A stretch of 64,000 bases of DNA, from assembly GCF_036373705.1 (NCBI RefSeq), contig NC_089853.1:31217068-31281067 (forward strand), read 5' to 3'. Positions 4,502 to 32,480 of this stretch are shown in pieces. The translations under genes and the position numbers were made by a program. The stretch's first letter is position 1; the number at the start of each line of letters is the position of its first letter. Source of the DNA: Amia ocellicauda (Eukaryota; Chordata; Actinopteri; Amiiformes; Amiidae). The notes beneath the pieces are model-generated. The model was given only the letters and a program-made list of their open reading frames with translations. It searched no databases and was not told the DNA's origin.

Positions 4502-5827
4502 TTAACTCAAGATTGTCCCTAGTCTCTTGCCATTGACTGCTTTGTCACGAAGGTGCACCTCTAGGCATTTGATGGCAACGTCATCCACTTCAGGGTCAAA
4601 TTTGTTCGCGAATAGATGGTGCTGAGGTAGCATCCAATGGAGGTCCCCACTACCATAGACGCACACTGCTCTCCGGTGAATGCCAGAACAACGTGGATAG
4701 GGTGACCCTTTCCTTGTGTCGCCTTCAAAATACTCCCATTTTACTAGTCGAGCTATGGCCTGCAAATCCGTGGTGTGAAATTTGGAATTGCTGGGAATGG
4801 ATCCTGGTACTCCAGGCATTCTCTGTAAAGTCGCCCAGAGATGTTCATCCGGGCTGTACGTGTCCTTTGACCATTCCAGTAGATTCTGCACCTTGGGATT
4901 TTCAAATAGGTATTGGACAAATTCACGAGTGACAACAAAATAAGCGTTGCCAGCAAACATGGGAGAGTCGATAGGTGGGGGGATCTTCTTGGTTTCCGTC
5001 CTGGTTATGGAATCTTTGACTTCGTGATGGTAAATCCAACGGTCTTTCTTGTGCTGTGGTGGAGGCTCCGATTCAAGGCTGTTCTTGCCATTCAGGAATT
5101 TAAGGGTCTGTACTATTTCCGCGTTGGTTTTTATTGGAAAATCGGTCCCACAGGTATTTAGAAGATATCTCCATTGTACCGTTGAGTTGAGCAAATCTTC
5201 CATACAGTTCAGGTCAGCCTGCACCCTCGACCACGATGCGTAGACTATCTTTTCCAGCTTTTTCACCACAAACACATTCGGCAAACAGGACACAATGGCC
5301 CTCACGGCATTCTTGAAGTCAGTTGAAGATTTTTGGTCCACATGTACACAGTACACATTCTGAGGGGTGTATATGGCACGAAGAAGTCTCTCGAACATCT
5401 CAATTTTTTCATGGATAACCATTGAGTAAGAGATAGGGAAGTCTTTCTCTTCTTGGCTCAACGGTGATGTAAGAAATTTTCTATTTTTCACATAGGTATC
5501 ACAGTCACGTGTAAGGTTAACATAATCAGCTTCTGTTAAATGCTTAATTTTATTGGCGACAAGTACCCTGCTTATCAGTGCTTGCTCAATAGCATCCTGA
5601 TCTCCACGAATTATTCTGGAACAGGTGGACAAATCCTTTTGGTCGTCACTTACCAGATGCACAGGTCTCAATGTTAAGTTATTGATGGTACAGTTGTCTC
5701 TTCTAGTCTGCCACAGAATGAACATGAATGAAAGCCAAAAAAGTAAAAGAGTACCGGTTGAAAATTTGTGATGGAAGAGTTTTGTCACAGCTTTTAAACT
5801 TGTGTTGATTTTATTCCATTTTGCCAT
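4502..5827 (-). CDS. GCNT3: Beta-1,6-N-acetylglucosaminyltransferase (core 2 GlcNAc transferase), GCNT3-like
   Basis: An intact single-exon frame of 441 residues, the usual size and exon structure of the GCNT (GT14) family. It is a type II Golgi membrane protein with a short basic cytosolic N-terminus, a signal anchor at about residues 27-40 ([13 protein letters not shown]), a stem, and then the lumenal catalytic domain. Visible family motifs are [20 protein letters not shown] (134-153), YCVHVDQKS (159-167), [16 protein letters not shown] (197-212), [17 protein letters not shown] (222-238) and [10 protein letters not shown] (325-334). The last contains Glu328, at the position of the catalytic base known in mouse C2GnT. 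Nine family cysteines are expected, and cysteines are present in the matching blocks. The enzyme transfers GlcNAc from UDP-GlcNAc onto O-glycan core 1, and onto core 3 for GCNT3. Sequence alone does not separate GCNT1, 3 and 4. I chose GCNT3 because human GCNT3 is the immediate neighbour of GTF2A2 on 15q22. Confidence 0.88.
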
Positions 5828-5883
5828 CGCTAATAATATGTTGTTTTTTTAAAAAGTCTCCTGAAAAGCAGAAATCTCCTGTC

Positions 5884-10357: not shown

Positions 10358-10454
10358 CAGGTGTCTTTTATACAGGTAACGAGCTGAGATTAGGAGCACT
10401 CTCTTAAAGGGACTGCTCCTAATCTCAGCTCGTTACCTGTATAAAAGACACCTG
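10358..10454. repeat. Palindrome in the Tc1 5' leader
   Basis: Two perfect 41-base arms (10358-10398 and 10414-10454) separated by a 15-base loop, ending 42 bases before the transposase ATG. The second Tc1 copy has the same palindrome at about 18228-18324, so it belongs to the element family. In a transcript it would form a very stable hairpin ahead of the start codon. Confidence 0.95.
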
Positions 10455-10496
10455 TCCACAGAAGCAAGCAATCAATCAGATTCCAAACTCTCCACC

Positions 10497-11510
10497 ATGG
10501 CCAAGACCAAAGAGCTGTCCAAGGATGTCAGGGACAAGATTGTAGACCTACACAAGGCTGGAATGGGCTACAAGACCATCGCCAAGCAGCTTGGTGAGAA
10601 GGTGACAACAGTTGGTGCGAATATTCGCAAATGGAAGAAACACAAAATAACTGTCAATCTCCCTCGGTCTGGGGCTCCATGCAAGATCTCACCTCGTGGA
10701 GTTTCAATGATCATGAGAACGGTGAGGAATCAGCCCAGAACTACACGGGAGGATCTTGTTAATGAGCTCAAGGCAGCTGGGACCATAGTCACCAAGAAAA
10801 CAATTGGTAACACACTACACCGTGAAGGACTGAAATCCTGCAGCGCCCGCAAGGTCCCCCTGCTCAAGAAAGCACATGTTCATTGGCAAACTTCAGATGG
10901 GCCTGTACATCTGAATGATTCAGAGGAGAACTGGGTGAAAGTGTTGTGGTCAGATGAGACCAAAATCGAGCTCTTTGGCATCAACTCAACTCGCCGTGTT
11001 TGGAGGAGGAGGAATGACCCCAAGAACACCATCCCCACCGTCAAACATGGAGGTGGAAACATTATGCTTTGGGGGTGTTTTTCTGCTAAGGGGACAGGAC
11101 AACTGCACCGCATCAAAGGGACGATGGACAGGGCCATGTACCATCAAATCTTGGGTGAGAACCTCCTTCCCTCAGCCAGGGCATTGAAAATGGGTCGTGG
11201 ATGGGTATTCCAGCATGACAATGACCCAAGACACACAGCCAAGGCAACAAAGGAGTGGCTCAAGAAGAAGCACATTAAGGTCCTGGAGTGGCCTAGCCAG
11301 TCTCCAGACCTTAGTCCCATAGAAAATCTGTGGAGGGAGCTGAAGGTTCGAGTTGCCAAACGTCAGCCTCGAAACCTTAATGACTTGGAGAGGATCTGCA
11401 AAGAGGAGTGGGACAAAATCCCTCCTGAGATGTGTGCAAACCTGGTGGCCAACTACAAGAAACGTCTGACCTCTGTGATTGCCAACAAGGGTTTTGCCAC
11501 CAAGTACTAA
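10497..11510 (+). CDS. Tc1-family transposase, open but with an internal micro-inversion
   Basis: 337 codons without a stop, starting at ATG in a strong context (CACCATGG). Residues 1-120 are the paired-like helix-turn-helix DNA-binding region, and the rest is the DDE domain. The catalytic triad is present: Asp153 in [11 protein letters not shown], Asp241 in [10 protein letters not shown] and Glu276 in SPIENLW, with 34 residues between the last two (DD34E). Such an enzyme cuts and pastes the element at TA sites. Residues about 128-137 read [10 protein letters not shown] instead of the conserved Tc1 segment resembling QARLKFANE. The DNA for that stretch (10876-10910) is inverted, and its reverse complement translates in frame to [10 protein letters not shown]. 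About three residues seem missing after VWRRRN (172-173) compared with relatives. The protein is therefore probably inactive despite its open frame. Confidence 0.93.
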
Positions 11511-12299: not shown

Positions 12300-12688
12300 C
12301 TAAGATTTGCTCAAGTAAGTGTTTTCATTGTCATCCTCTCCATCCTCAGCCTTGATGAAGTTGTAGCGTCGGTAGACCGTGCCATCCCTGCTGGTGTAAA
12401 CCACATCAGTCTCGTCACCGCTGTCCTCGGGGCCCGGGACGCCATGGAGCATGGTAGAGGTGGGGGGGGCAGCCTTAGCACTGCCACTCAGTCTCTCATA
12501 GCTCTGTTTCCAGCACAGTCTCTTCCTCGCCCTGGCCTGGAAGAGTGCGAACATGGCTAGCCCCAACACCAGGGCCAGCACCAGCAGGGCAGGCAGTGCT
12601 ATGGATGCGTGACTTGGCATCTGAGAGTCTGCCTTCCCAGATAGAAGAGTGTGCTCCGACATGGGGAAGGAGACCTCTACACAAAGCG
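12300..12688 (-). CDS. Terminal exon: transmembrane helix and acidic tail
   Basis: Encodes residues 837-965. After a short linker comes the hydrophobic run [20 protein letters not shown] (866-885). A stop-transfer ARARKRLCW follows, then the tail with two acidic clusters and the tyrosine-containing stretch [16 protein letters not shown]. Ser in EDSGDETD fits a CK2 site (S-x-x-E). In furin and PC5B, phosphorylated acidic clusters are bound by PACS-1 for return to the trans-Golgi network, so a similar route is likely here. The acceptor is CCCCAG at 12694-12689. Confidence 0.88.
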
Positions 12689-15386
12689 CTGGGGATTGTA
12701 AACAAACAAATTCAGCTAGCATCACACTATTACCATTTTTTTAACATACATACTTTACTGGTGCTAGTAATTAATCTCCTGTGGTGGCAAAGTAAATATA
12801 AAGAAGCTGGTTGTAGAAAATGCACTAAACATTTTATTGGGTGGAAATTCAGGTCAATATAACCATGTTATATAAACCACAGGGAAACAGAATATTGATA
12901 ACTTGCAAGTACACTATGTGCAAATCTTTGCTGCAGAATTTATTTAGATCACTCAGTTTTAATCAGAAGGCAATTCATTCTAATAATCCATGAAAGAACA
13001 CCGGAATATCATACTACTGGACAAAGAACCAATATAATCAGTTTGCAATTGTGATACTGCAGCTTTGTGAAGATTTAACCCATCTCATATTACTTTACAC
13101 CACACTTTGCTACCAACCTCTTGTGGTTCTACAAAACCCTCCATTTTAGATTTGAAAAGCTTGAGTACCTGAGTTGGTACTACAGTGGCAGCAGTTAGTA
13201 TTGTTGAGCTTTGACTCGCAGCATCTATCACACCGGTTTTCCAGAGGATGAAGACTGAAGTTAGGCTTGCATGTCAAACACTGATGTGGGCCCGGGCCTG
13301 AACAGTGTCTGCAGGAGGGATCACATAGCTTACAAAGCTCCTGAGGGGAGAGAGGAGAAAACATATCCAGATGGCTACAATTAGATGAGTTATCCATATT
13401 GAATGGCATGCTATGCAACTTAAAATGTCCACAGAGAGGTATCTAAATCTAAAATTGTTTTGAAATGTAATGTTTGTATTCAGGATAGGGAGAAGGAATA
13501 TTTACTTATCCGTTTGAAAACAGAGAGCTACCATGATCTCAAATCAATTGGGTTGAGTATAATATTCTTGGAAAGAAACTGGCAATTTATTAAGTTTTGC
13601 ACAATGCTGGTTTGATATGTATGTTTTTAAGAAACAAGAAACTGTGAAAGTAAGCCAAAATGTTAAACAGACTGATACAATGTTGTGTAAGAGCAAGAGC
13701 ATGCTTGGTGCACACAATTATATTCATATGAAGGAACCTCCAATAAGCACCCTTCTTTTGTAACTCAAAACCGTAACCTTATGAGCAGTTCTCAGATGGC
13801 AAAACCACATTAACAGGCCATACATCACATTTTATATGACAAATATTTGTTGCAGATCCTTAAAGAGCAGAACTTGAGTTTTAATGTATACTTTTTTTTT
13901 ATTATTATTATTTACATCATGTTAGTCATAGGTGTAGTCAAATAAAAGTCAGCATTTCTTAACCACAGTACAACTTCTTTTGTATTGCAGCTACTGGAGT
14001 CTTTGACTGCAGCTACTTACATCCTCAGAGAAGTAATGCCTTTCTTCACAGCGAGGGTAACAGATCCCATCCTGCAGGGTACTGCCCCTGTCACAGGTAA
14101 GACATCCCTGAGGGGTGGCATCTACAATGTAAAAACTATCAAATCAAGGGTTAAGGGTTCACGAGACAAAAACTGAAACTTATATAAAAAACAGAATTGA
14201 ACTATGAACTGACAAATTATTACTGTTCCTCAAGGGCAGTTTGTTAGATGAGGTGCTTGCTTTCATCAGCATTGACAGTAATAAACCAATAGCCCTAATT
14301 ACCTTTACAAGTTTTACAGCTAGTGTGGCACTGTCTGCACTTGTGGTCCTGCTGGTAGAATCGCTGAGGGCAGTGCTCTACACAGAGTTTGGTACTTTCC
14401 AGTTCCAGCAGGTGGGGGGGGCAGGCCAGGCAGGACTTAATGCCAGGGCCAGAGCAGCGGCCACAGGAAGAGTCACATTTCTCACATCGAGTCTTCTCAC
14501 GATAGTACCTGTAGCAACCAGGACAAAACTACTACATAAGGATGCAAACATTCAGTAAGGCATGTGCATCAAACCAGACAGCCTGTATTAAAAAAATAAA
14601 TACAAAACAAATCATTAAAAAAGTGTCAGTCTTCAGTCACCCTTGATTTGGATTCTTCCTAGCAAATCCTTTATGGTCAGTGACTGGCTGCATGAATAAC
14701 ATTAGTACCAAAGAACATTGAATAAAGTTATTCAGCATCTTCTTTCTCTCACATATTGGTTTAAAAGTGTTAAGATAACACCTTTAAACTCAAGGATGTA
14801 AGGGCAAAACTTGACTTAAGTTTTATGGAGTTGGAGTTGGTCAAAGGACTTCCTTGGTCCTTCTGGGCTCTGAATTAGAGATTCCCTTAAGCTGACCAGA
14901 CTTGTTTTTTCCAGGTCTAAGGCAGAGTCCTCTAGCCCTGGTCCTGCAGAGCTTTAGGCTTTATAGGGTTATCACATCATTGGCTAAATAAATCAATCAC
15001 ATAATACAATCAAAACCAATTACACCACAATTGGTTCATTAAATAAATGAGAACATGGCTGAAAATAAATGCAAACAACTCAGTTCTCCAGAAGCAGGAT
15101 CAGGGACTCCGGAAGAAAAATAAACGAAATACCTGTAAAACCTGTCCCCATATGCTCATTCATATAAACATTATCTTTTGAGATCTCTTCCTTATTAAAC
15201 ATGGGTAGTGCAGTCAGGTTCCTATATATACGGAACTACCCATTTACCATTGTCACTAGGAAATCAAATCTATTCCAGAGTTGACGTTGGTCACCAGCAG
15301 TTGGTGTAATATTTGCAGTAAGCATGTTCAATTTAGGTGGGGCAATCAGGACACAGTCATTGTATAAGCAGGTAAGGGTGGAGGAG

Positions 15387-15420
<34 letters not shown>

Positions 15421-18400
15421 ACAGGTGTGCAACACATACCAATTCACCTGTAGCACTAGGCTAAATAAAAACTCAATCCTCTCCTCTTACAGAAGGTTGG
15501 ATTAAGGATGAATAATATCTTCATGATAGCGTCACTACAGTCACACGCAAATACTACCATTAAGATTGATACAGGTGTGGAAACAGGTGGAGAAGTTAAC
15601 ACAGACCAAGTATTCCTACAATGCCATGTCTGAAAGTATTAGTCATTTGAAAAGCTTCTTTTACCCTGTAGTTATATCAATTTTCAATTTCTTCTGAATT
15701 CGTAACGGACGTGTGCTGAAACTACTTCTGGTTTAAATGGTTTCCTCAAAATGTGGTAGGATGTATTTGACAAACTACTGCCCACACTTAACGGTACTTA
15801 CCCTGTGGGACAGTGGGAGATGCAGAGGTGAAGGAATTTTAAATAGCCTGAAGAACAAGTGATGCAGTCCTTGGGCGAGGCCCCAGTACAGGTGTCACAG
15901 ACATGGTCACACACCGAACAGAAACCGAGCTCCACTCTGTCTGCCTCCTCACTGGACTGGAAGGTGCCCCCAGGACATCCCGTCACACATGTGCCATCTG
16001 CATCAAAACAAATTGGCATACTGGATGCAGCTGTTCTCTTCAGATTAAGCCTTTCACCGTGTATTTCAAATTATATTACATTTTACGGTCACTTGCATAT
16101 AATGAAACAGGGGGGAAGAAATGTTTCCAATATGATGGAGCTCTGCCAGACCATTACAAGTACCCACTACATATAACAAAAATCAAGCACATCTCGCAAG
16201 ACTTGATCAACAAAAGTACTTACTGTACAAGTAACTGGGCACTGCGCAGGTCTGGCAGTCTGTGTCAGCAGGGCCCACACACGATTCACACTGGCGGTGA
16301 CAAGCATTGCAAGTGAAACGATCTTCATGAAGAAACATTTTGGGGGGGCAGTTGGAGTCACCGGTGACACCACACATCCTGGTTTCTTGATCTAGTGCCA
16401 AGCCTTCCTTACATTTAATGCACTGTGTTGCCTCTGGGCCTAAACAGCTGGCACAGGTCAGGTCACACTCTGAAAGATTGAAGATTACAATTATATATTC
16501 CTTAGAGGCATTTTCCAATTAATGTCTTGAACGTTTTTAACGATCTGTTTTTAAATCTGCCTTCACGCCTGAGTGAAAAGTAAACACGGTTGTTAAAACA
16601 CCAACTAACAAAAGTTGAATTCTGAGGAAAAAGTATTGGAGACCGTGACAATGGTCAATTTGATTTCAAATTCATTGGAACACTGTACTCAAGCTGTCGC
16701 ACGGTAGGGAAGTGCCACAATCGATAAGGTTGTGTGTGTATCCCAAGGCGCCTTCGGCAGATGCATAAAACACTTTGTGCTACATGCAGTAGTAACATGC
16801 ATGATAATAAAGGACTATATACATTCAAGCCTTTGTTTTCTTCTAAGCAATAAACACAATTGTGGTGGATTTAGCTGCAATTACAGAAGAGATTAACCAC
16901 AGTCACTGAAGATTACCATTTAAACTAAAAGGCACATATGTATGACTACTGTGCAACAAATGCAAGTAACAGTATATAAATATGTATAGGTACATGCATA
17001 CAAATGGGTTCTAGAGTAATTACAGTGAGGGGAAAAAAGTATTTGATCCCCTGCTGATTTTGTACGTTTGCCCACTGACAAAGAAATGATCAGTCTATAA
17101 TTTTAATGGTAGGTGTATTTTAACAGTGAGAGACAGAATAACAACAAAAAAATCCAGACTTCGACTTCGACTTAGTACTTGGTGGCAAAACCCTTGTTGG
17201 CAATCACAGAGGTCAGACGTTTCTTGTAGTTGGCCACCAGGTTTGCACACATCTCAGGAGGGATTTTGTCCCACTCCTCTTTGCAGATCCTCTCCAAGTC
17301 ATTAAGGTTTCGAGGCTGACGTTTGGCAACTCGAACCTTCAGCTCCCTCCACAGATTTTCTATGGGATTAAGGTCTGGTGACTGGCTAGGCCACTCCAGG
17401 ACCTTAATGTGCTTCTTCTTGAGCCACTCCTTTGTTGCCTTGGCTGTGTGTTTTGGGTCATTGTCTTGCTGGGATACCCATCCATGACCCATTTTCAATG
17501 CCCTGGCTGAGGGGAGGAGGTTCTCACCCAAGATTTGACGGTACATGGCCCCGTCCATCGTCCCTTTGACGCGGTGCAGTTGTCCTGTCCCCTTAGCAGA
17601 AAATCACCCCCAAAGCATAATGTTTCCACCTCCATGTTTGACGGTGGGGATGGTGTTCTTGGGGTCATTCCTCCTCCTCCAAACATGGCAAGTTGAGTTG
17701 ATGCCAAAGAGCTCGATTTTGGTCTCATCTGACCACAACACTTTCACCCAGTTCTCCTCTGAATCATTCAGATGTACAGGCCCATCTGAAGTTTGCCAAT
17801 GAACATGTGCTTTCTTGAGCAGGGGGACCTTGCGGGCGCTGCAGGATTTCAGTCCTTCACGGTGTAGTGTGTTACCAATTGTTTTCTTGGTGACTATGGT
17901 CCCAGCTGCCTTGAGCTCATTAACAAGATCCTCCCGTGTAGTTCTGGGCTGATTCCTCACCGTTCTCATGATCATTGAAACTCCACGAGGTGAGATCTTG
18001 CATGGAGCCCCAGACCGAGGGAGATTGACAGTTATTTTGTGTTTCTTCCATTTGCGAATATTCGCACCAACTGTTGTCACCTTCTCACCAAGCTGCTTGG
18101 CGATGGTCTTGTAGCCCATTCCAGCCTTGTGTAGGTCTACAATCTTGTCCCTGACATCCTTGGACAGCTCTTTGGTCTTGGCCATGGTGGAGAGTTTGGA
18201 ATCTGATTGATTGCTTGCTTCTGTGGACAGGTGTCTTTTATACAGGTAACGAGCTGAGATTAGGAGCAGTCCCTTTAAGAGAGTGCTCCTAATCTCAGCT
18301 CGTTACCTGTATAAAAGACACCTGGGAGCCAGAAATCTTGCTGATTGATAGGGGATCAAATACTTATTTCCCTCATTAACATGCAAATCAATTTATAACT

Positions 18401-21400
18401 TTTTTGAAATGCGTTTTTCTGGATTTTGTTGTTATTCGGTCTCTCACGGTTAAAATACACCTACCATTAAAATTATAGACTGATCATTTCTTTGTCAGTG
18501 GGCAAACGTACAAAATCAGCAGGGGATCAAATACTTTTTTCCCTCACTGTATATATACAAGGTTAATAAGTAACATCTTTACTACATGGCATGTCTAGCT
18601 GTCCATTTTTTACTGTAGTCCTAACATGATTTGTATTGAAATCTAAAGTCTGATCACACATTGATTATAATTGTTCCCTTACCCTGACATTCACTGGCTG
18701 AAATCTCATAATAGGTTCCTGGAGGACAGTCCTCAGAGCAGCGACCATCGTACAGCCTGGGATATTGCAGTGAGCAGCTCTCACAATCATCCGTCTCTGG
18801 CCCCGAGCAGGTGGCACAGGTAGGGTGGCATGGAACACACTTGCCTTTGTCCAGGTCCTCATAGTAACCATCAGGACAATTTGCTTTGCAGACACCATTG
18901 AGAAGCAGGTACAAAAAACTGCATTCTTGGTGAAACAAAACAAATAAATTGGTAAAAATGTATTAGTTTGCTGATCTTGCATCTTTGTGAAGAGAATTTA
19001 AACAGTTTCTTCCCAGCAACAATCCACTGAACACTACCTCCTGACTTTGAATATTTTAGGAGATGCCCAGCAGCTGCACTGAGACACAGTCACCACAGTC
19101 ACCACCTACTGAAGTGCTCCACTGGCCTGCTGCTCTCAAGCCCCAGCTGGATTCATGAAGTTCAGTTTACATGGGTTTAGAGAAGCCCAATGAAGGACTG
19201 ATTTTAAAAGCAAAACATATACGTTTTAGCTGCAAACAGTTCATTGAAAACTTGTGCAAGATACAAACATTAAAAATTCTGAATGCTCAATTTATTTTTT
19301 CTGAAAAAACAGTGCCACAGGCAGAACAGGACAATGGAGAGACTCAGTTCCAGCATCTGCAACACATTTTTCAGACAGAATATCAGCCAGTATTCTTTCA
19401 TGCTGGCTGAACTGATGTCTTGCAACCCCAGGAAGTGCGATTACAACAAGGAAAATGTAAAAGCCAAAATGAGATTCTCTCAAAATGTAACTAAATCAAC
19501 TGGAGACCCACCATGCTATGCTTTCTTCTTCATTTGGCAAAGAAAAATGGGGCTTGTGATGCAATAACTGAACTGTAATCAGGTTTAGGACAGAAAAGGA
19601 AAAAAACAGGCTGAAGAATAGTAACTGCATCTGGAGAGAAGGCTGCTCACAACAGCCCAGACATCCCTGGTTCCAATTTCAATCGCTGGGGCTGGCCTGG
19701 CTCACAGTTGGCCAGGGTTTCCTTGACTTGCTGCACAACAATAAGGACTGTCTAACCAGGCACATGTAGGTCCACAGCATTATTGGCGAGAGCTGCATTA
19801 GTTACAACCTTACTGCATGTCAATTTGGAGCCTGTGTGCATAAATCATCTCCCCGAGCCTGTATAATAGTTGTAGTAGCAGTGATAGTTACAAAAACAAG
19901 TTTGGAGGGCTTAAAAGAATGCGTTCAAAAACCAAAAAACATCTTCACTAAACAATGGCCTTCAACTATGAAGAATCAGCCATACTATTTGAGAAGTGCT
20001 TAATGATCAGCCTAAATGAATAACAAATAATCACAGTGATGCCTTACTCATACAGGTGTTGGCGTCAGTGCAGACATCACAGTGAGCAGAGCAGCGGCTG
20101 CAGGTCCCATCCTCGGCAGGGTAGCTCCCGAAGGAGCAGTTGCCATTGCACTGGTGATTCTCCAGGTACAGCCCCTTCACACAAGACAGGCACTTGTACT
20201 TGTTTTCGTCACATGTAAGACAGGAGTCATCACAGGCCTCACATGTGCCTTCCACTCTCTCAAAGTAACCTCTGAAACGACACTGTAGTGAATCACCATA
20301 CTTTGACCAAAACTACAACATTTAAAACAATACATTTTTTTTGCATTAAAGGGTGTGCTGCAGATATAATCTAAATTATTTCATAATCAAGGTTAGAACT
20401 GTATACAGTACCATGAAAAAGTATTTGCCCCATACTTTACATGAAAAGGGTGAATTTTGTCAGAATTAAGTTTGATAATTCCAACTTACTCTGGGCAATT
20501 TGACCAGCACTTCCCTTCATGAAGGAAGAGTCTGTATTTGCCTTTCTTACAGCTGACACACGTGTCACTAGTCTCCTCGCATGTCTCACAGTTGGGAGAG
20601 CACTCCTCACACAGCTGGCTTTCAGACTTAACAAAGTACCCAGCAGGGCAGTGCTCCACACAGGAGCCCTCCTGGTCCAGTAGATAGCCTACAACAGCAG
20701 GAGTAGATAAGTTGTTAGAGGAAACAACCAAGTCTAATATATTGCTTACACCAGGTTGAACAGTCATGGTCCCACCATTACATCTTTGGGTTTCAATCTT
20801 GCCTAATTCAATGCATTATAACATTTTACCCCAGTACTTTAGGTGTTCATTGTTTAATATGACCTATAACACATAAGACTGCAGCACTCCAATATCAGTG
20901 ACCGATAACTGATTCGGACAGAATATGGAAATTGTAAACCAAATCTTGAATTAGGGTAATTTATCCCCATGTGTCACCCTCATTTAAGATTGAGTGCAAC
21001 TGCTGGGTCTCCAGGGCATTGGCAATCATTTCCACAGTGTCTGGGTCAAATGAAGTGTTCCCAGGTATGCAGAGGAGTTAATTGAAATGGTTACAGTATG
21101 TACATAAATATCACTTGCCTCTCCAAATCTCTCGAGATTATTGCAGGCAATATTGCTCAGTGTGTTACACTGGGCGGTTTGCCCACCAGGCTTTCTTTCT
21201 GCTCAATTATCAGTGAGGGGATTACAGTTCCAGTTGCTATTTTTAGTTCCATCAAACAGAGGACAGTGACAAATGTGCAATTTAACATCACCATCCATTT
21301 AGTTCGGGAGGTTGAAGTATTTTACCATTAACTGATCCCATTCCACAATCACTACCATCAGACGACAGCCTCTAATCTGTGTAGTTATCAGATTTATGCT

Positions 21401-24000
21401 GTGGCTGTTTACAGCAGAAAGGATAAACATGCATCAAAGTGAAATGGAGGCCGTTTAGCAAGGAGAACGACAGCATTTGTGAAATATCTTCCCTTGTAAA
21501 ATCCATTTGCATTATATATTTTCGCCACCGACTTCATGGTTTGTAACAGTAATTGCTTGAATAGATGGACATTACAAACAAACCCGTTTGGTTCATGAAA
21601 TGCGCATCTTGACTGAATCGACACTCACGCAAAGGGACAAAGTACCTGTAAAGCATGAGGAGCAGTCCAGAGCTTGAGGCCCAAAGCAGGTCTTGCAGGA
21701 AATGTCACATGCATAGCACTTTGCATCGGTTGCTAAGAGGTCAGGCAATACAAGAGAAACCAAATAAAACATGTCCAGATTCAAAAAGCATAGATCTGAT
21801 ACAGCCACAGTACAGTCTAACTTTGCGATTGTCTTATTATATCCACAACATAAATCCATTTTCGGAAAACAGGCAAAACCAAAATAAATCTATACAAACT
21901 ATGTGTTTACAGTTCTTACAAATGGAACTGCAGTGTTTCCCTGCATTAAACAGCATAAGTACCAAAGTGTAGTATTTGAATTTATCCAGCAGAGGACAGT
22001 CTTGGTATTGCTATAAGGAAGGCTATATCTTTTTTTATGCATTCACATTCTGAATTAATTTTATTTGAAGTTGATTTTGAACGTAGATGTACATCTAAAA
22101 ATAAACTTTGGTAAGAAGAATACATCTTACATAAAACTGCAATTTTAATTTTACTTTTTCCCCAGTAGTTTGTGCTGTAGGGATGTACAACATGAGAAAA
22201 GGGAAGTAGCAGCACAGGGACATTAAAACAGCTGAAAGAACATCCCTGTGTGGGCCGCAGTGTGGAGATAAACAGATGGTCTTTCCAGGGCCCAAAGAAA
22301 ATCAAAATACAAAACAAATGGTAAATTTTGAAAAAGTAGTTATTGCAGTATTTTTAACTTAACATTTTGAATTTTGACAGTACGGAATTAAACCTAGGGG
22401 TTTTTAGCAGACCCTATTGAATAAGGCAAACAATTAAATGGATAGACATGGAAAGATTTTATAATAAGTGCGTTTACAGCTCTGGCAGTGTGTGGAAAGC
22501 AGTTGTTGATTAGTTTAAAAAATAATGAAAAACTACTGAATAGAATGGAATGGATGACTGGTTTGTTCAATTGAATCGCTTTAAAATAAAGTTTCAATTT
22601 CAGCAAATCTATATTTATATTTATCAAAATCGGGTACAACTGCACAATGGTTTTTAATCTTACCTAAAATTACTAGAACACTTAGTGACACAGTCCTTGT
22701 GATATTTACAAGTTACACAGAAGCAGTTTGTTCAAAAGACAGATTATGTACACTTAATAAAAAAAAAAAAAAAAGCGTCAGTGTTGGCCGACTTACCATC
22801 AAAATACTGTCCCTCCAGGCAGCTGGCAGCAGGACACTGACCGTACAGAGGAAGGTTCCCATCAGGGCATACATCACAGTCCTTCACCAGCAGGCCATGG
22901 CAGCTCTGGCAGGAGCTGTGACAGGCCTCGCAGCGCCAGCCGTTTGTGTCCCCGTAGGTGCCATCAGGGCATTGCTTTACACAACCTCCCTCTGTGGACA
23001 AAGCATATTGTAGGGCATGATGAATTCCTGCCACGGCCTTCTCACACAAAACAATCCTGCCTGCCCACCCGTTGCGTAGATTACAACAAGAATATAACAA
23101 AAACAAAAGCTGTGATGTATATTTCAGTAACTACTTCAGAAGCAGACTTCTGACCTGTATAAACAATTTCCTTATGTTCAGCATTTGAGAAAGATTAAGC
23201 CATGATAGTAAGCAAAATTCCACACACTTTCTTGGATATCAAATAATTTGGTCCAATAATCCTTTTTGCATGGTTGAGTCACAGTGACCAGGTGGTTGCT
23301 AAAAAAATATCTTTACCTGTAAAATGTAAGAATCATTGTTTTGACCATTTGTACATATAATGCTTTTTTACCCTTAGAATTTATGGGTGGGCACAGGGCA
23401 TGTTAAAGTGCAGATACAAAAAAGGTCACAGGAGTTTGTTATGGATTATGAGCCTTTTTCTTAAATTATAAAAAACCAAGAAGGAATACAGTTTTCAATT
23501 CCACTAGATGGGTCCAAATCAAAAGATCAAAACAAACATGTATTGTTTAGTATGTTCACTTTTAAAGTAATTACATTTTAAAAGTTATTTCTGAAATAGC
23601 TGAAAGCACTGGAAATCAACATTAGATTATAAATGCAAACCAGCAATACAGAATAGTCCTCCTTGCAATGGATATCCCTAAATCGCAGAGAAAAACTACA
23701 ACATTCCCACAAAAGATTACAGAACAGGTAGTTCCAGGCCACTTTTTGAATACACACATTGAAGCTAGAAACGGCAATGGCGCTCAAAACTGTTGATGTT
23801 AGAGAAAGTGCCGAATGGCTCGCCTTAAGCAAATGAAGTGGAGCTCTCAAAGGCGGTCTGTGTTTTTGTCATGACCTCTCCTCAGTTAGAGTAAGCAAGG
23901 CAGTGTCTTCTTGCATTCCTTCTGGCAGTTCAACTGTGAAACTGTGACCCAAATCACTTGGAACTGGATCTCAAACAACGGCTTGCTTTTAAGAGAGTGG

Positions 24001-24040
<40 letters not shown>

Positions 24041-27000
24041 GAGGGAGAGGAGGCGGCTTCAGCTGCCTGTAACTATGAAACTAAAGTACACAGTGCCCTC
24101 TCAGAAATGCAACTGAAGGAGGGGAGGAGGGGAAAAGTAAAGTATGAAAGTCAACAATTGTCAATCTAAAAACAAAAACACGAGAGGTTTTCTTTACAAA
24201 CATATATGGTATGACAGTTGAAATGCAGCATGTTTTCTCTGATGGGGAAAAAAAATAAATAAAAAAATAAATGGAAACCCTGAAATTTAAATACCCTCTT
24301 TTTACATCTCCCAATTTCTAAGATAATGCATTGCTACCACCTTCAAACAAAATAAAGATCTAAAGATAGTTTTCCCTAATAGTACTGCAATTGCACAGGT
24401 ACCTGACCAGCCACAAAGGTTGTGCTTGTACATAATACCATGAACATTGGGGGCCATGGTGACTGCAGACTGAGCAGAGACCTTTACTAGCTGAGCCACT
24501 ACATCTAATATGGAGTCACAGATACTATGTATAATAGCCATTGACTGGATATTACAACTGCTTGCTTTTGGTAAAAGGTCAGTGAAGCTCAGTGAAGACT
24601 TGCCGAGGGTCAAATTGGCAGTGTAAAAAATGTAATTGGAACCTCTTTATATTGGACTACTTGTAGGACATCTGTCCCAGTTTGTCATCAATGTATTGGG
24701 CTAGGGCATTATTTATATATTATATACATCACACACACACACACACACTTAACCCCTCAACCATTATTTGCATTACCCCTAGAATCCAATTGCCTATAGA
24801 AATAGAACACTGATTTGCTATCCAAATTGACTATTGTTGGACTTTCATCATAGAAGTGCCTTTATGAGTGTGGCAAGTTTATTAGGTGCTGGGAAATGTC
24901 TAGAAACTACAAGAGAAACTCAACTGGTTAATTCTGGGTTAATTTTTAAACAAACAAACTCTTATTGGAGGCAGTGATTCTTATAGCTGACTACTGAAAG
25001 ATTCCAGTGGGCTGATTGGTGAACTGTTCAAAGTGGTGTCTGCTATTTATGAAGAAAAGGAAAGAAAGAGGAAAAAAACACAAAAAAAACCAAAGCAGTT
25101 TCAGCTGGGTCTCATGATGTGCCCTGATATTTTGCTTTGTTTAATTCATTTTAGATTACCTAGACCTCAGCGGAGTCACCTCTCTACCGCCACCTTCCAA
25201 AAAGTTAGAAAGATTAAGCTCTTTGAATCATTCCTCTTTAAAGCACTCATCCAAAAGGTAATTCGTCAAAATGAGAAACTGAGAATACACCAAAATGCTT
25301 TCATTTATTCTCAACATTGCCCTGTCCTCAAACATTTCATGAATGAGTTTCTCATGCCTGGGACAATGTCAAAGTATTTGGAGCATTTCATTTTCTGACT
25401 TCTAAATCCTTTTCAGGATATCATGCCCTGAACTAGACATGGTATTCTAAGTGAAGTAATAACCAAAGAGCAAGTTAGTAGTAGCTGCGCATTCACTGTA
25501 GGCTGTAGACTAAAGCACTAAAACATTAGGTACTCACCAGTCAAGAAATGGCCAGGCTGACAGGCAAGGCAGAGAGACTCACTAAAGCAGTCAGTGCAGG
25601 GGACTGGGCAGCTAAAGCAAATTTTCCTCCCAACATCCTCATAGGTCTTTTGTGGGCAGCGCCGGCGACACTGGTGTCTGTAGCTGGAGAAATGCAAGAT
25701 CAATATAATCAGGAGATTGCATTGCCATAGAGGTCATTATATCAAATTTCAACCTCCAATCTAAATAACAATACAGGAGAGTACACGAAGTAAAGGTTCT
25801 AATAAGAACCTTTTAGGGTTCCTGGGGTTGATACTGTGGAGGAACCCTTAAGGTTCTTATTAGAACCTTTTACCAAGGTTCCTTACAAACAAGTATCCTT
25901 AAAGAACGTTAAATGTATCTTAAATCAACCACGATCATGATGAAAAGGGTTTTTAAATGATCCCATGCGTTTAAGACAGACCTCACGGTTCTTAAACAAA
26001 CTCTTTAACTCAAGAACCCAAAGGTTCTAAATAGAACCGCTAAAGAACCTTCATATTTTACAGTGCAAGAATAAGTAAGACTGGAGACGTTTTTTTCCTT
26101 CTTCTTCCAGGGCTGATTGGGAGCACGTGACATGTATGCATTTCCACTGTATGCTGAAAGAAATGTACAGTAATCAAAATACTTTGTGATTAATTTATAT
26201 TCGGACTTATGGGATGCATCAGTGTTCTGAGAGAAAAGAGCAAGAGAAGGCTGCTACCGAGTGAGAAATTCACTTCCAGATACAGTACGGTAGCCCAACT
26301 TATTAATTGAAGCAGGGCAACTGATATGATTGTTCTCAGATCAAATGGCTAATGAAAATAATATGGCTATGAATCATTATGGCTCTTGCAGGTGATACAA
26401 AGATAAATAATGGGATATGGCTGTGTGTGGAAGTCTGACAATAGGAGCTGGGCAAAGAGGTAACCAGAGAGCTGCTGCCACACCCAGGTTCACAGCACAG
26501 CCTGCAGCAGTATAGAAGTGGGCTGGAGACAGTGGCCCAAGGGAGTCCAAAAGCACACCTGTTGCATTGTTTAAGTATCCCCATGTCAAAGATATAACTT
26601 GACATTAACAACCTGGTTGGCATACAGCTCTCCGAAATTAAAAACCATCCCAGAACTGCTTTTCAGGCTACTGCCCCACAGGGTCATTTTAATTGACAAG
26701 TTGTCCCCAGAAATGGTTTTAAATGAAATAGGATTTTGTGCGACACTGTAAAAGTCACAGTTTAAACGTTGCTACATGTACAGTCACTTAATAGTCTGGA
26801 CTGGTGACAGTCATCTTGCTTGAAAGTTTCAAATACAAACTAATGGAGCAGGTGTGATCCAATGATCTGGGGCTGGCACCGATGGGCTCTCAGTTAAGTG
26901 AAGTCTTTAATTATTGGAATAATTATTGGAACCGACAGTGAGTTGCGTTTCCTGCTCGGTGCTGTGGCTGTGAATCTCTGCACTGTGATGCTCTGAGGGG

Positions 27001-30000
27001 CTGTTCAGATAAACTGCAGAGGCTGTGTTGCTCATCACAGCTGCTCATCTCTTTCAGAGCCAGAAACCCATGGCCAGCTGCAGGCAATACAACCTTCAAA
27101 GTGTCCAGGCACATTTCCTCTGTCACACACTGGCATCATGGTTTGTAGACTACAGTGGTAACCAGTTACCCAAAGCTATCAGCCACAGATAAAGAAAATC
27201 AGCTTCCTTCTTGCTTAAAAGAGTTATTGGAAGTGCACTGCTGCTTATGACATTTTAGATTGTATTATAGAATAACCATGACATTAATATACATTACCTT
27301 ATTCCTTATAAACCTTATGGTCATTTAGGTTTTGTACAATGCAGACAAAGTGTGTGGAAGTGTTTGCGCGTGTGTGTATGCACACAGACTTGGACAAGAA
27401 TACTACCAGTACTTTAAACACTGTTTGTTGCCAAAGAAATATTCTACGTGCATATATTTGGGGTCCTTGCTTTCCTTTCCCGAGTTACAGGTTACTAAAG
27501 CTGGGGGACTGCAGTTTGCTTTGATTTAACCCGAGAGCTGAAAAAATGCATTGCAAAGCTGAAAATAAAGTACCAGCATTTTAAGGGTATTGAAGGGTGG
27601 ATTTTGTGGACTTGGATTAATAAGCAAAAGATTCAAGAACAGTGTGAAGACTTTTGAAAAGGAAACAAAAAATGACCCTAAATCCTGTTTACTACTTAGC
27701 TGTGTTTCTCCAGTTAATCTTCCCAGCTACAATGGATGATTTTCCACTACTAAAATCTATCAAGGGCTTTCAAACACAATGCATGAATGCATAAGGTTTT
27801 TTAAATGTTTACCTTTTAAAGTGTTGAAGATTGCCAACAAATATTACTATAGAATATTCCATGTAAGAAGGGGACAACTGGGGAAGCATGGAAAGGGAAG
27901 ATACCAGAGAAACCCTATGTACACAGCCTCCAAACCTTCAAAGGAAATGTCTGACTTAAAACTGAAGGATGACCCCCCAAAAATAAATCGTAAAAGTCAA
28001 CCGTAAATAGTAAAGGTAAAATCCAAATAAACAGACAGATTTGTTTCCAAACTGTTGACATCAACATAGACTATTCGCTAATATGTTGGGTTCAATTCAG
28101 CTCTACAAGTTTTCCTCTATACTAAATCTCAGGTTTCAGAAAACATCCCTCATCAGTAGGTAACATGATGCAAAAGAATAGTGGAGCAAAGCTAATGCAG
28201 AAGGGGAAACTGAACAATGTGCCATTTGTTCAGAGGCTAAGGTAATGCAGGGGACCAATGAAACAACTCTGGCGCAGTGGAGAGAGTGTTGGTCGCCACA
28301 TCTGGATTCTTGGTTGCTGCTCGGTTTTCAGTCCTTAAAAAGAGCCAGGCTCCCTAAATAGAGCGGTGACATTCACCCCCCTTGCCATCAGGTAAAATAT
28401 CTAAAGAGGATTAATCACTATTCAGGAATGTAATCTAGCATTCTTTATAATACTTCAATGGAAGTCAAATCAGACTCAGTTTTAGCCTCAGGCACCACAT
28501 CATTGTTTAAATCTTCTCTGGTCCTCAAGGGCCAAATTATGGTTATTTTATATAGGTCTCTTTTTCTCATTACCTTCTTCAGTTCTGGGTGGAGTGTTAA
28601 ATATGGTTCAGTGCAGTTCATCAAAAGTTTACTTTCCTGAAAGCTCAGGTGGATGTGAAACAACAACAGACCCTATGGCCCCCAAGGACTGGATGGAAAA
28701 GGAACTCTGTCAGGAATGGTTCTTTCAATTTATAGCCAAGGTGGTGCAAAACTTGAGATGTTATGCATGTGGGACCTTCCACGTTCAAAACACTTCCATT
28801 TCAAGGCTTCCATTTCTTTGTGAGGATACTGAAGGGGAACTGACCACACTCGTTTGCATATTCATTAATAAAAGTAACCAGAAGTTGTTTCTTCTATTAG
28901 AAACCCAAACAAAATGTTCAAAACCAGCCTAACACTGCAGAACATATTCTTACATCAGCAGGGAGGAAGACAGTCTTGGCAAACATCCCTTTTTGTAGCA
29001 GGCTGAAGACATATTTGGAGGACTTACATGCTATGGCAGTTCTCCATTTCATTGTGAAACAATACTGGTCAATTAAGAATTTCAGTAAATTAAAAGACTC
29101 CCTTTTGGGACATCCAGAGGAATTGTACACTCAAACACCTTGGACTGTGAAAGGAAGAGAAAGAATGCAATGGGAAAAAATGCAAATGAGCTTTACTCAC
29201 AGAAAATATCCTTCCATGCAGCTGTTACAGAGCTCAGGGTCATCTGGGTGGGAAAGAAAGAATGATCAGTACGAGAAAGTGCTTTTCAGGACGCAAATAA
29301 AATACAAAAAGCACCAGGGAATGAGAAAGGACGTGAACATATTGATCCACTTTAGCAGCCTCATATATTTTCTTGCAAAAGAAGAGATCTTACATGCTGA
29401 ACACAAAAAATATGGCCATACATTAGTTTAAGTTCATAAAATGGAAAATAGGCCGATAAAGTGCCCTCTAATAATAAAGTCCACTGCAGTTTTCAAGCTT
29501 AAATTACAGACTTGTTTTCATCAATGCTAACTTATTACCTTTCACCCCCCTGTGTACACAATTCCAAATGAACATTAGCCATAATCTAAATCACCAGCCC
29601 ATTTATACAGCAGGCCCCAGGATCAGACCTGTGATTTACCTGTTGAACATGTTTTACATCCAGCTTCACAGTCAAAGCATTCTCCAGTTTCAGGGTCTTG
29701 GACTTGGCCTGTAACACAAGAAGCACAGCACCACTCAGCCCCTGAACACCAGGCACTACATTTACAAAGCAACTGCACCTCCTCCGAGAGAGACTGGAGC
29801 TCTGTGCACTATGACATTTAAATATCCTTCTCTTCCAACACCAATTTCTCTTGGTCGGGTCATCAAAAAGTCACCGGTTAACATTACCTTCTTCACACTC
29901 AGCTGCCTGGCAGATTCCATTTTGGAGTTTGTAACTTTCTTGGCACTTGGCGCAGACATCGGCATCAGTGCAGATCTCACAGTTGGGCATGCAGGACTCG

Positions 30001-32337
30001 CAGGTGTACAGATTCCGGTCTGGGTAGTAACCCCGGGGGCAGTGCAGCCTGCAGCGGCCTCGGTGCAGAAACCGCTCCAATCCGTCTTCATCTAGGAAGA
30101 CCACAAGTGCTGTTAATGGAAACCAGCGCTTCACCTCTCCTGATGGATCCATTAGCTACAAAAATGCTTGCCAGTAAAGGTCTTTTGCAATCCAAGTTCC
30201 ACTGGGAATTTTAATCAAAGGCTCTTCCACAACAATATACAAATCTGTGCCAAGTAGGTTTTACCAACTTTTGCATAAATCAAATGTGACACGGCCCATT
30301 GAAAGGTTATTGTTTGGTTACATTTATTATATGAAAGTTCACATAAGGTAAACGACATACTGGCAAGGGTGCGTCAACCTTCTTCCAGCAAGACACTGAA
30401 CACACCAAAGGAAGCAGCCAGATCAGACCATAATAAGAAAATGCATCAGGGAAGTCATCTTCACTTTCAATACAAAAAAAGGGGTGGGGTTGATTTCAAC
30501 CTTTTACCATACAAAGCTTTGTCAGGATGTTAACTGTTGAAATAAAAGTTGTTAGTTAACTTTAGTTCATGATTATGCAACATATAGAGGTCTACTATAG
30601 CAACACCCCTGTCCACACACACCAATATACGAGACAGAAGTTAGTGTAGGAAAGACAATTAGGCCAAATCCTACAAATGTTGCTCTGAACTCAACTATAA
30701 CATTAAATTGCTGCATTTGTCTTTGCTTGCTTTTCATGATCAGAGCATGTTTTTCTCCCACCAAACCCATTTAAACCAGCTTTCAACTTCTAATAGGCCC
30801 TAGTAGATTGCACCCTACTTATTCAGCCAAATCAGTACAATAACAGAGCAGTTACATTATTTATGCATTTTAATGTCCATTCCACAATTCATATTTTTAT
30901 CATCCATGCATCAGTATGAACCATTTCACAGCTGTGTATAACCTTGGAAAGAACAGTCAAATTTTGCAAATCTAGAATATTTGTCTAGCTATAATTTACT
31001 TATTTATTAAAAACAACTTAATACATAGTCCTTTTCTGAAATCAAAACCATTAACCACATTGTCTGGTAGTTCTTGATTTCCTTAGTGCTCTATACAGTG
31101 TGGTTTCCTATCCAGACAACTACTTAGGACGGGGGGACTATGTAATAAGACAACCGCATAGTGCTGCAGCAATGGCTAACTGGATGCTTTCTTGTACATT
31201 TCTAATTGTTTGTGTGTGTGGCTGCTGTAGTTATCACATTACAACAATACAGCATGGACTTGAATCCATTTTGCAACATAAAGGCCGGAAAATGGGCACT
31301 TCTGTTCCCCCTGCCACCCATTTCTGTATTAAAGGATTTCTCTAAACTGAGTTGCTTGCGATTCCTTATTGAGATAGAGAGAGAAAACTTTAGGGGATTA
31401 ATATTTTACCAAACGTTTGCATTTCTAATAATACAAATTAGATATAGCTCAGCTGAAAGAAACGTCCTTATAATTAAAATAATGTTAAAAACAAAAATAC
31501 AAAAAGAAGTCCTTTATTATGCATGTCGTCGACTTTACTTAGCCAGGTCTCTTTTTCAAAAATAATGCATCTTTGTCAAAAAGATAAATGAAGGTGTGCT
31601 TCGTTTTGTCCGACTCCAACAGCTGTGTATACAGAGAGAACAAGCTGGGAGCCTGGGATTGCTCACCACCTTATTAGCTTCTCTGAGAACAAATACCTTT
31701 GAACAGAAAGACAGTGGTGAGCCTTTGTGTCTATGCGAAAATGTTAAATAGAGACCTGAAATACCCCACCAATACTGTTAAATTAAATTCTAAACGGATT
31801 CCTTATGAAACTGCATTCACCCACGTTTGTGTACACCTAGCATTTAGAAAGAGTTTCCTTATTCAGTTATTGCTTATCTCAAAACTAACTAATAATACAT
31901 TATGTTTATCGTTGTTTCATTATACTTTCTCAAACTGGCGGATATGTTGCGCAAAAAGGAACACTTCCACCAGCCTTCACATGGTGAATGATTAGTAAAT
32001 ACGATAACAACGCATTGCATTTCACATTGCACCACAACATTAAAAAGGCATGCATGTATATTTCAATCCAGTTAAGGAATTAGCTTTTTATTTGCATCTC
32101 GACTCCTTTTAAAACTCATTTGATGCATGTACACAAGTCACAAAGTGTCTCACCCACTCCACAGGTTGTGCACTCAAACAGCTCATGACCGACGCATTCA
32201 GCGCAGGTAGGATGGCAGCCGACGCACTGCTGCTTCAACGCAAACTGCCCGCCGGGACAGGACAGCGACGCAGGTTTACTGTGCGCAAATCCGCAGAAAA
32301 CCACCAAAAGCAGTGCTTGGAAAGTGTTAACCTCCAT
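12300..32337 (-). CDS. PCSK5-like furin-repeat (FU) type I membrane protein without protease domain
   Basis: Sixteen exons in transcript order: 32337-32154, 30091-29888, 29708-29640, 29243-29201, 25677-25538, 22991-22797, 21732-21646, 20688-20490, 20271-20048, 18925-18683, 16469-16224, 15997-15802, 14508-14303, 14121-14021, 13340-13169, 12688-12300. All introns are GT..AG, phases match at every junction, and the sum is 2898 bases, or 965 residues plus stop. Layout: signal peptide 1-20, then about 16-18 furin-like cysteine-rich repeats of the CxxC...C..C type ([32 protein letters not shown] and similar), a transmembrane helix at about 866-886, and a 79-residue cytosolic tail with clusters EDSGDETD and EDGEDDNE. 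The same order makes up the C-terminal half of proprotein convertase PCSK5 isoform B, where the Cys-rich domain tethers the enzyme to surface proteoglycans and the acidic tail directs Golgi/endosome sorting. No subtilisin domain is encoded here. I infer a membrane-bound binding or decoy protein. An RSPO, FRAS1 or EGFR-like identity is less likely given the tail. Confidence 0.85.
12689..13168 (-). other. Intron 15 of the furin-repeat gene
   Basis: AT-rich, no repeats recognised. Introns 14 (13341-14020) and 12 (14509-15801) are similar. Intron 12 carries a poly-A run of about 30 bases at 15387-15417. Confidence 0.6.
14303..14508 (-). CDS. Internal FU-repeat exon 13 of the PCSK5-like gene
   Basis: This exon has no internal methionine start, so it is easy to miss. 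The minus-strand frame runs from acceptor GCTACAG to donor AAAG|GTAATT and reads [18 protein letters not shown], then [20 protein letters not shown], then further Cys pairs to CHTSCKTCK. It enters in phase 2 and leaves in phase 1, matching both neighbours. With the whole frame dividing by three only when it is included, it is well supported. Confidence 0.88.
15387..15417. repeat. Poly-A run in intron 12
   Basis: About 30 consecutive A residues, read directly. It could be the tail of an unrecognised plus-strand retroposon. Confidence 0.9.
17023..18549 (-). mobile_element. Tc1-type DNA transposon, copy B, in intron 10
   Basis: Same family as copy A, opposite orientation to it and same strand as the host gene. 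TA duplications lie at 17021-17022 and 18550-18551, and termini are CAGTGAGGG / CCCTCACTG. It is shorter (1527 bp) because the 3' region after the transposase stop has lost roughly 75 bases and carries a small 'cttcgacttcgactt' repeat at 17159-17173. It otherwise differs from copy A at only scattered positions, so both are recent. Confidence 0.96.
17172..18185 (-). pseudogene. Tc1 transposase with one nonsense codon
   Basis: The frame starts [20 protein letters not shown] at 18185 and would end FATKY, like copy A. Codon 194 is TGA (17606-17604) where copy A has TGT in [10 protein letters not shown], so the frame is cut between the first and second catalytic Asp. Downstream, the same frame stays open and keeps [10 protein letters not shown] and NPIENLW. 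It shares with copy A the micro-inversion (17772-17806) and the shortened [11 protein letters not shown] stretch, which shows a common defective ancestor. Confidence 0.92.
18926..20047 (-). other. Intron 9 of the furin-repeat gene
   Basis: No exon or transposon recognised. Plus-strand open frames at 19171-19567 lack splice context or family resemblance. Introns 7 (20689-21645) and 6 (21733-22796) are likewise featureless. Confidence 0.55.
22992..25537 (-). other. Intron 5 of the furin-repeat gene
   Basis: Holds a (GA)n microsatellite at 24003-24036 and a (CA)n stretch at about 24730-24748. No missed FU exon is needed, because phases of exons 5 and 6 join cleanly. Confidence 0.6.
24003..24036. 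repeat. (GA)n microsatellite
   Basis: About 17 uninterrupted GA units in intron 5. Confidence 0.95.
25791..26065. repeat. Foldback repeat built from AAGGTTCT modules
   Basis: A 31-32 base arm at 25791-25822 (AAAGGTTCTAATAAGAACCT onward to GGGTTCCT) faces its near-perfect reverse complement at about 25841-25872. Each arm is itself nearly palindromic. Further AAGGTTC / GAACC words continue to an end reading AAAGAACCTTCATATTTTAC followed by AGTG. This is the style of short nonautonomous foldback or MITE elements in fish. I cannot name the family or see a target duplication. Confidence 0.6.
28262..28400 (+). mobile_element. Decayed tRNA-derived SINE (tentative)
   Basis: TGGCGCAGTGG at 28270-28280 fits an RNA polymerase III A box, and GGTTTTCAGTCC about 45 bases on is a damaged B box. 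The spacing suits a tRNA head, but no cloverleaf can be folded and the body is not recognised. Confidence 0.4.
30092..32153 (-). other. Intron 1 of the furin-repeat gene
   Basis: Separates the signal-peptide exon from FU exon 2. No protease-like exon is visible within it. Confidence 0.6.
32154..32337 (-). CDS. First coding exon: signal peptide plus start of FU repeats
   Basis: Starts at the only in-frame ATG (context GACATGG, strong). Residues 1-20 form a signal peptide ([20 protein letters not shown], cleavage likely before KPAS). The next residues already enter the Cys-rich repeats ([19 protein letters not shown]), with no propeptide or catalytic domain between. The donor is GTGAGA at 32153-32148, phase 1, and it joins exon 2 to give [14 protein letters not shown]. 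Upstream DNA is CpG-containing and shows no splice acceptor with matching frame, so this looks like a true 5' end. Confidence 0.8.
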
Positions 32338-32480
32338 GTCTTCTTTAACATTCACGCAAAAACAAGAGCTTTTAGTGACGATAAATGACGGCAGTCGGCG
32401 AGTTGAAGCTCCCGCAGGTGTGCATCCCTAGTTGAGCACCAGGGATTGAACGCTTGAACTCGCTCGACCAGTTTGTGTAT
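32338..32480 (-). promoter_or_regulatory. Probable promoter / 5' UTR of the furin-repeat gene
   Basis: CpG-containing DNA directly upstream of the signal-peptide exon (several CG in 32350-32480), distinct from the AT-rich sequence beyond it. No TATA box is seen at a usable distance. Confidence 0.35.

Follow-up and report, generated by a model that had tools for sequence, protein, structure and literature searches.

The closest described relatives of the gene reported here are isoform B of the proprotein convertase (PC) PCSK5, also called PC5B or PC6B, and PCSK6 (PACE4), a member of the same subfamily. Furin-like (FU) repeats are also found in the R-spondins, which are secreted proteins with two FU repeats plus a TSP1 domain and no transmembrane helix. 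To our knowledge, little is known about the role of the isoform-B half of PCSK5 on its own. According to excerpts of PMC9296861, PC5B localises to trans-Golgi vesicles, and the Cys-rich domain of PACE4 binds heparan sulfate proteoglycans and TIMPs. Here we describe a gene in a 64,000-nucleotide stretch of the genome of the fish Amia ocellicauda (assembly GCF_036373705.1, contig NC_089853.1, positions 31,217,068 to 31,281,067; hereafter the window, with the contig abbreviated C4). The gene is like PCSK5 isoform B in the order and phases of those B exons that were compared, in its FU repeats and single helix, in a DGTVYR tail with a Y-x-x-hydrophobic motif and an acidic cluster, and in having a GCNT gene as its downstream neighbor. 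It is unlike isoform B in that no subtilisin, P-domain or PLAC exon was found with it, in its low sequence identity (33-48%), and in having its own predicted signal peptide and probable promoter. We estimate the probability at about three in four that it is a paralog of PCSK5, most likely dating from the early vertebrate genome duplications, that has been reduced to the isoform-B half and whose protease half is gone from the locus.

A 16-exon gene that resembles the isoform-B half of PCSK5

We rebuilt the gene model one exon at a time, picking splice sites by eye. The gene is on the minus strand, running from position 32337 to the last base of its TAG stop codon at 12300, and all 15 introns between its 16 exons are GT-AG with consistent phases (Table 1). 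The original prediction for this locus had proposed 16 exons joining in phase to give 965 codons; the exons and their phasing stand, but the length does not, because the rebuilt product has 967 amino acids, of which 136 are Cys. The protein contains 16 copies of the FU motif C-x2-C-x3-C-x2-C, then one transmembrane helix (approximately residues 866-888, with a 19-residue Kyte-Doolittle mean of up to 2.71), and two acidic stretches C-terminal to the helix. The predicted mature N-terminus enters the FU repeats directly. Two earlier proposals, that the first exon leads from a signal peptide straight into FU repeats and that the last one carries a helix and two acidic clusters, agree with the rebuilt model, in which the signal peptide and the helix are predictions from hydropathy and the -3/-1 rule only. 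The product would be a type I membrane protein with the 16 FU modules outside. In a Pfam scan of the 967 residues, the matches were VSP (E = 5.8e-21), Furin-like_2 (E = 8.9e-20) and GF_recep_IV (E = 1.5e-17), with Furin-like (PF00757) appearing only under its Pfam cut-off, and there was no subtilisin-type catalytic domain. The match to the Giardia VSP family is partial (positions 73-138 of 397), and we take it as a generic Cys-rich resemblance.

Our genome searches covered the window's own 988-Mb assembly. With the whole protein as query, residues 65-134, 216-271, 376-450, 451-532 and 532-613 and the tail match contig C8 at descending coordinates. The last exon has a single other match in the genome at E-values up to 10, at C8:33622530-33622835 (36% identity, E = 0.0015). 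This C8 sequence reads DGTVYRKFKYGLL, followed by an acidic run, and the PCSK5 counterpart of the region containing the window tail motifs is VYMGQDGTVYRKFKYGLLEDDEEEE. A single helix and a DGTVYR tail with acidic clusters are therefore common to the window protein and the PCSK5 of the same genome, with the final acidic cluster being weaker in the window protein. Above the B exons, C8 has a PLAC exon (33654569) and furin-like catalytic exons (33.668-33.709 Mb). The catalytic exons are sister to those of a gene at C4:24.48 (81% identity, support 0.865) in a small tree that kept 7 of its 10 rows (human furin and nine gene groups); C29, C6:11.56 and C1:59.52 were dropped for low coverage, and loci L004 and L005 (C6:16.03) had been excluded beforehand. 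Because of this sister relationship we provisionally call the C8 gene PCSK5 and the C4:24.48 gene PCSK6. We reject the possibility that the window gene is PCSK5 itself, because the gene combining protease, PLAC and B tail is the one on C8.

Because the repeats are short and alike, we compared exons by means of a score matrix and intron phases, in place of a tree of FU repeats. Nine of the B-type exons on C8 were read, and for seven of them the expected partner had the top score among the 16 window exons. At scanned splice sites, the in-phase agrees between C8 and window exons in 7 of 7 cases and the out-phase in 7 of 7, and so do the out-phase of the partner of exon 13 and the in-phase of the partner of exon 16, whose sites were set by eye. 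In the reverse direction, a search of the window with the C8 exons matched exons 2, 6 and 9 (38-41% identity, E = 3.5e-8 to 9.2e-6); exons 10 (43%), 5, 8 and 12 were matched as well. Placement was thus examined exon by exon, and the colinear match is to PCSK5 and not outside the PCSK5/6 family, as would be expected of the PCSK5 isoform-B-type half that was originally proposed. Other FU-repeat proteins are more distant. The top match by sequence among solved structures is an R-spondin FU domain (4qxf, E = 5.9e-8), but the window protein has 16 repeats and a helix, and no TSP1 domain in the Pfam scan. Five matches at C8:14.00-14.01 Mb, to a gene that we guess to be FRAS1, are much weaker than those to PCSK5 (best E = 0.0044) and include no tail match. 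We therefore reject identity with FRAS1 or an R-spondin; the FU similarity to these proteins is generic only.

Table 1. Features of the window, with the C8 (PCSK5) partners of the exons that were compared.
Feature	Position	Strand	Phase (in to out)	Remarks
CpG-rich stretch	32167..32466			21 CpG per 300 bp, narrowly the window maximum
Predicted signal peptide	32278..32337	-		5' part of exon 1; first -3/-1 site after residue 18 (GFA)
Exon 1	32154..32337	-	0 to 1	3' part ends ...ECTTC; positional partner C8:33640566-33640430
Exon 2	29888..30091	-	1 to 1	partner C8:33638206-33638006
Exon 3	29640..29708	-	1 to 1	gene model
Exon 4	29201..29243	-	1 to 2	gene model
Exon 5	25538..25683	-	2 to 1	gene model
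Exon 6	22797..22991	-	1 to 1	partner C8:33629134-33628937
Exon 7	21646..21732	-	1 to 1	gene model
Exon 8	20490..20688	-	1 to 2	gene model
Exon 9	20048..20271	-	2 to 1	partner C8:33627814-33627594
Exon 10	18683..18925	-	1 to 1	243 nt; partner C8:33626481-33626239 (243 nt), E 2.4e-13
Exon 11	16224..16469	-	1 to 1	partner C8:33625980-33625747
Exon 12	15802..15997	-	1 to 2	positional partner C8:33625415-33625238
Exon 13	14303..14508	-	2 to 1	partner C8:33624591-33624374 (best score)
Exon 14	14021..14121	-	1 to 0	gene model
Exon 15	13169..13340	-	0 to 1	final FU repeat and CC motif
Exon 16	12300..12688	-		juxtamembrane region, transmembrane helix, and cytoplasmic tail up to the stop codon; partner C8:33622494-33622906 (the PCSK5 tail exon, with ends set by eye)
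Transmembrane helix	12540..12608	-		residues ~866-888, by hydropathy
Cytoplasmic tail	12324..12428	-		EDSGDETD acidic cluster, Y-x-x-hydrophobic motif, EDGEDDNE acidic cluster
GCNT-type frame (Core-2/I-branching enzyme)	4505..5848	-		single exon, 448 aa; Pfam

The protease half is not found at the locus

We searched for the missing half with a furin query that is identical in alignment to PDB 6yd3, starts after the prodomain and includes the P domain. In the window and 200 kb upstream of it we found no subtilisin or P-domain exon (best E = 2.5 at a cutoff of 10, and no matches at a cutoff of 1), while as a control the same query recovered PC exons elsewhere in the genome with E-values down to 1.9e-40. 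When the whole FU protein was compared with this 264-kb block, there were 99 local matches at a cutoff of 1, none of them outside the gene. Extending the furin search to the entire genome (74 matches; 75 of 75 candidates scored) revealed no protease exon within ~5.8 Mb on the contig; the nearest PC exon on C4 is at 25.35 Mb, which is ~5.9 Mb from the gene (31.23-31.25 Mb). Similarly, a search for PLAC exons gave 35 matches, none at C4:31.2-31.5 Mb, with exons present at C8:33654569 (E = 1.4e-4) and C4:24455365 (E = 1.2e-5). On these searches of the assembly, from the window and 200 kb upstream to the whole genome, we reject the idea that protease exons lie upstream of exon 1, and the gene model and the upstream search together support the gene for a stand-alone, protease-free membrane protein that the original prediction had put forward. 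Among the matches listed in a search of the open-licence literature, none describes a protease-free gene of the PCSK5B type, and we know of no human counterpart; other databases may well list it already, through automatic annotation, as a PCSK5-like gene.

The furin search also identified a compact furin-family gene at C8:2396827-2406836, which in its catalytic exons shares 70% identity with human furin and 68-69% with the PCSK5- and PCSK6-like genes.

The first exon appears to correspond in position to an internal exon of PCSK5

Exon 1 begins at the first ATG (32337) in an open frame that extends to 32427. Its predicted signal peptide has no basic residue ahead of the hydrophobic stretch, and cleavage between AHS and K, after residue 20, may be an alternative to the site in Table 1. 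This peptide is located where the FU array begins and inside the CpG-richest stretch of the window, where the observed/expected CpG ratio is 0.90 (at 32201-32500), compared to 0.33 in the whole window. This stretch, which only slightly exceeds other peaks in the window (20 CpG per 300 bp at 37390, and 18 at 51881), is the probable promoter of the gene.

By position, the 3' part of exon 1 would correspond to an internal exon of PCSK5, an equivalence that the original prediction did not include. We pair the two because the C8 exon precedes the partner of exon 2, has the same out-phase, and scores best on exon 1 among the 16 (100, versus 96 for exon 10 and 94 for exon 12). In the reverse search exon 1 was matched at 41% identity (E = 0.022). 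The PCSK5 exon opens with FU coding sequence (YFSEGQCVI) ahead of the residues SCPKG, and at the matching point window exon 1 has SLSCPGG, preceded by the predicted signal peptide. Upstream of the PCSK5 exon there is an in-frame stop with no ATG between them, so this exon is internal. An AG at the boundary of the signal peptide (offset 57 in exon 1) would give phase 2, which is the in-phase of the PCSK5 partner, and the sequence before this AG is 63% pyrimidine. Because the first 100 bases of exon 1 hold four AGs, the case that a former acceptor tract was turned into a signal peptide is weak.

Neighboring genes

The closest relative of the GCNT-type frame downstream of the gene is at C8:33600835 (59% identity), ~21 kb below the PCSK5 tail exon. 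Upstream of the gene are exons that we take to be OTUD7A-like and KLF-like; their Pfam matches are OTU (E = 0.0009, under its cut-off) and zf-C2H2. On the same side C4 has a TRPM gene at 31.50 Mb. On C8, TRPM genes are located at 33.83 and 34.52 Mb and a KLF gene, 65% identical to the one on C4, at 34.60 Mb. ROR genes are present at C4:30.999 and C8:33.871 but on opposite sides, so gene order is partly scrambled. GCNT, TRPM, KLF and ROR are thus common to the C4 and C8 loci. KLF (74% identity over 69 residues) and ROR (75%) genes also occur 38 kb apart at C28:10557921-10596041, with a PC gene 5 Mb away at 15.56 Mb, as repeated genome duplication would be expected to give. Excerpts of PMC2682703 describe GCNT1 near ALDH1A1 (human 9) and GCNT3 near ALDH1A2 (human 15) as duplicated neighborhoods. 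Because of this, and because of the neighbors shared with C8, the window gene most likely stands in the place of PCSK5 within a paralogous region, a placement that goes beyond the original prediction. The window is not the PCSK5-GCNT1 locus (the order in human), because the protease and a GCNT gene are together on C8 and the neighbors here are OTUD7A- and KLF-like.

The second CpG peak in the window (37390-37689), ~5 kb from the start of the gene, may serve as promoter for the OTUD7A-like gene farther on. The window also contains Tc1-type transposons: a Tc1/Sleeping Beauty-type element at 10380-11507 (+) whose transposase frame is open over 376 aa (HTH_SB, DDE_3), a Tc1 copy in intron 10 of the gene at 17172-18299 (-) with its frame in two parts, and a further Tc1-type transposase in two pieces at 48439-49461 (+).

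Weighing descent from PCSK5 and its alternatives

Several points weigh against the interpretation that the gene is a reduced duplicate of PCSK5. The identity to C8 PCSK5 is low and the FU repeats are mutually alike, and the E-value of the tail match by itself reaches just 0.0015. Four more C8 matches in or just above the interval, to residues 448-509, 471-546, 667-736 and 720-763, break the colinear order, as can happen with repeats; in the whole-protein search the partners of exons 12, 13 and 1 aligned to residues 448-509, 471-546 and 720-763, respectively. By score, the partner of exon 12 ranks fourth of 16 on its expected exon, with phases that agree, and the partner of exon 6 ranks second of 16, one point behind exon 10, which part of it also matched (43%) in the reverse search. 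The pairing of exon 1 is narrow, at only four points over exon 10. Because the ends of the C8 exons were chosen to keep the frame open, the agreement in phase is not fully independent. The comparison covered nine exon pairs, leaving window exons 3, 4, 5, 7, 8, 14 and 15 and the DNA between the C8 partners of exons 1 and 2 outside it. Considered alone, the predicted signal peptide is a ~2% event, suggestive but not proof: its hydrophobicity is reached by 9 of the 384 open ATGs in the window (a set that includes the gene's own ATG), 6 of which also have a -3/-1 site. The KLF and ROR genes on C28 are about as close as those on C8, so these neighbors are common to three regions. Lastly, the analysis covered the genomic sequence of one species, and the function that we propose for the gene is inferred.

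The best of the alternatives, which we consider possible but distinctly less probable, is that a single PCSK5-type ancestor gene was cut in two by a rearrangement on the precursor of C4, with the window gene and PCSK6 as its halves. The half with the protease, the short Cys-rich region and PLAC would have moved to become PCSK6 (C4:24.455-24.487 Mb), and the B half would have stayed beside GCNT. PCSK6, the sister of PCSK5, is on the same contig, 6.7 Mb away, and it is a mirror image of the window gene: it keeps the protease and is followed by a PLAC exon on the same strand (C4:24455365), with no B-type tail exon found there at E-values up to 10. There is also an extra TRPM gene 1.6 Mb from PCSK6 (C4:22.836), echoing the PCSK5-TRPM arrangement on C8. 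The complementarity of the two genes at the PLAC/B boundary and their shared contig thus favor a fission. However, the window gene has kept KLF, TRPM and GCNT around it, which means that there was no clean transfer of a block, and the TRPM gene at 22.8 Mb and PCSK6 differ from C8 in relative order and orientation. Two independent half-losses would account for the same pattern, and in the published neighborhoods, as excerpted from PMC2682703, PCSK3 and PCSK6 are near ALDH1A3 rather than ALDH1A2. The surviving flanking genes and the linkage of PCSK6 to ALDH1A3 favor loss of the protease half in place. A fuller scenario seems improbable to us: that PCSK6 and the window gene split after the early vertebrate duplications, that the acceptor boundary of an internal FU exon became a promoter-driven signal-peptide exon, and that the resulting protease-free receptor was later lost in mammals.

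It is very improbable that the gene is a decaying remnant, a non-functional duplicate minus its protease half. The weaker last acidic cluster, relative to PCSK5, would fit with decay, but all 16 exons are open with consensus splice sites, the 136 cysteines form 16 regular repeats, there is a CpG peak at the start, and at 33-48% identity to PCSK5 a 2.9-kb frame is unlikely to have survived by chance. Least credible of all is an ordinary 3' half of PCSK5, in which protease exons lie upstream and exon 1 is either an alternative promoter or an internal exon drawn too long. Although the phase-2 AG and the pyrimidines before it may be a surviving acceptor, neither the 200 kb upstream nor ~5.8 Mb of the contig yielded a protease exon, the gene with both protease and B tail is on C8, and the upstream side holds a second CpG peak (37.4 kb) as well as OTUD7A-like exons.

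A possible protease-free receptor

In the favored explanation, reduction of a PCSK5 duplicate, the subtilisin and P-domain half would have been lost from the locus, and what was retained would be the half specific to PCSK5 isoform B, with the late FU repeats, the transmembrane helix and the sorting tail. An exon that is internal in PCSK5 would have become the first one here, driven by a CpG-rich promoter of its own, and a signal peptide would have replaced the start of the old FU segment. The product would then enter the secretory path with a type I topology. Its tail has a Y-x-x-hydrophobic motif (YNFI) beside acidic clusters, features that we take to be sorting signals, and for this reason it probably cycles between the trans-Golgi, endosomes and the cell surface in the manner of PC5B. 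Its FU repeats may bind some of the ligands of the PCSK5-type Cys-rich domain, without proteolysis. By analogy, we tentatively suggest a role as a decoy, scavenger or sorting receptor.

The existence of the isoform-B half alone, with an intact reading frame, suggests that this half of PCSK5 has a job of its own. The gene is in effect a natural protease-free construct for finding its ligands, and it would make it possible to trace how an internal exon turned into a first exon that encodes a signal peptide.

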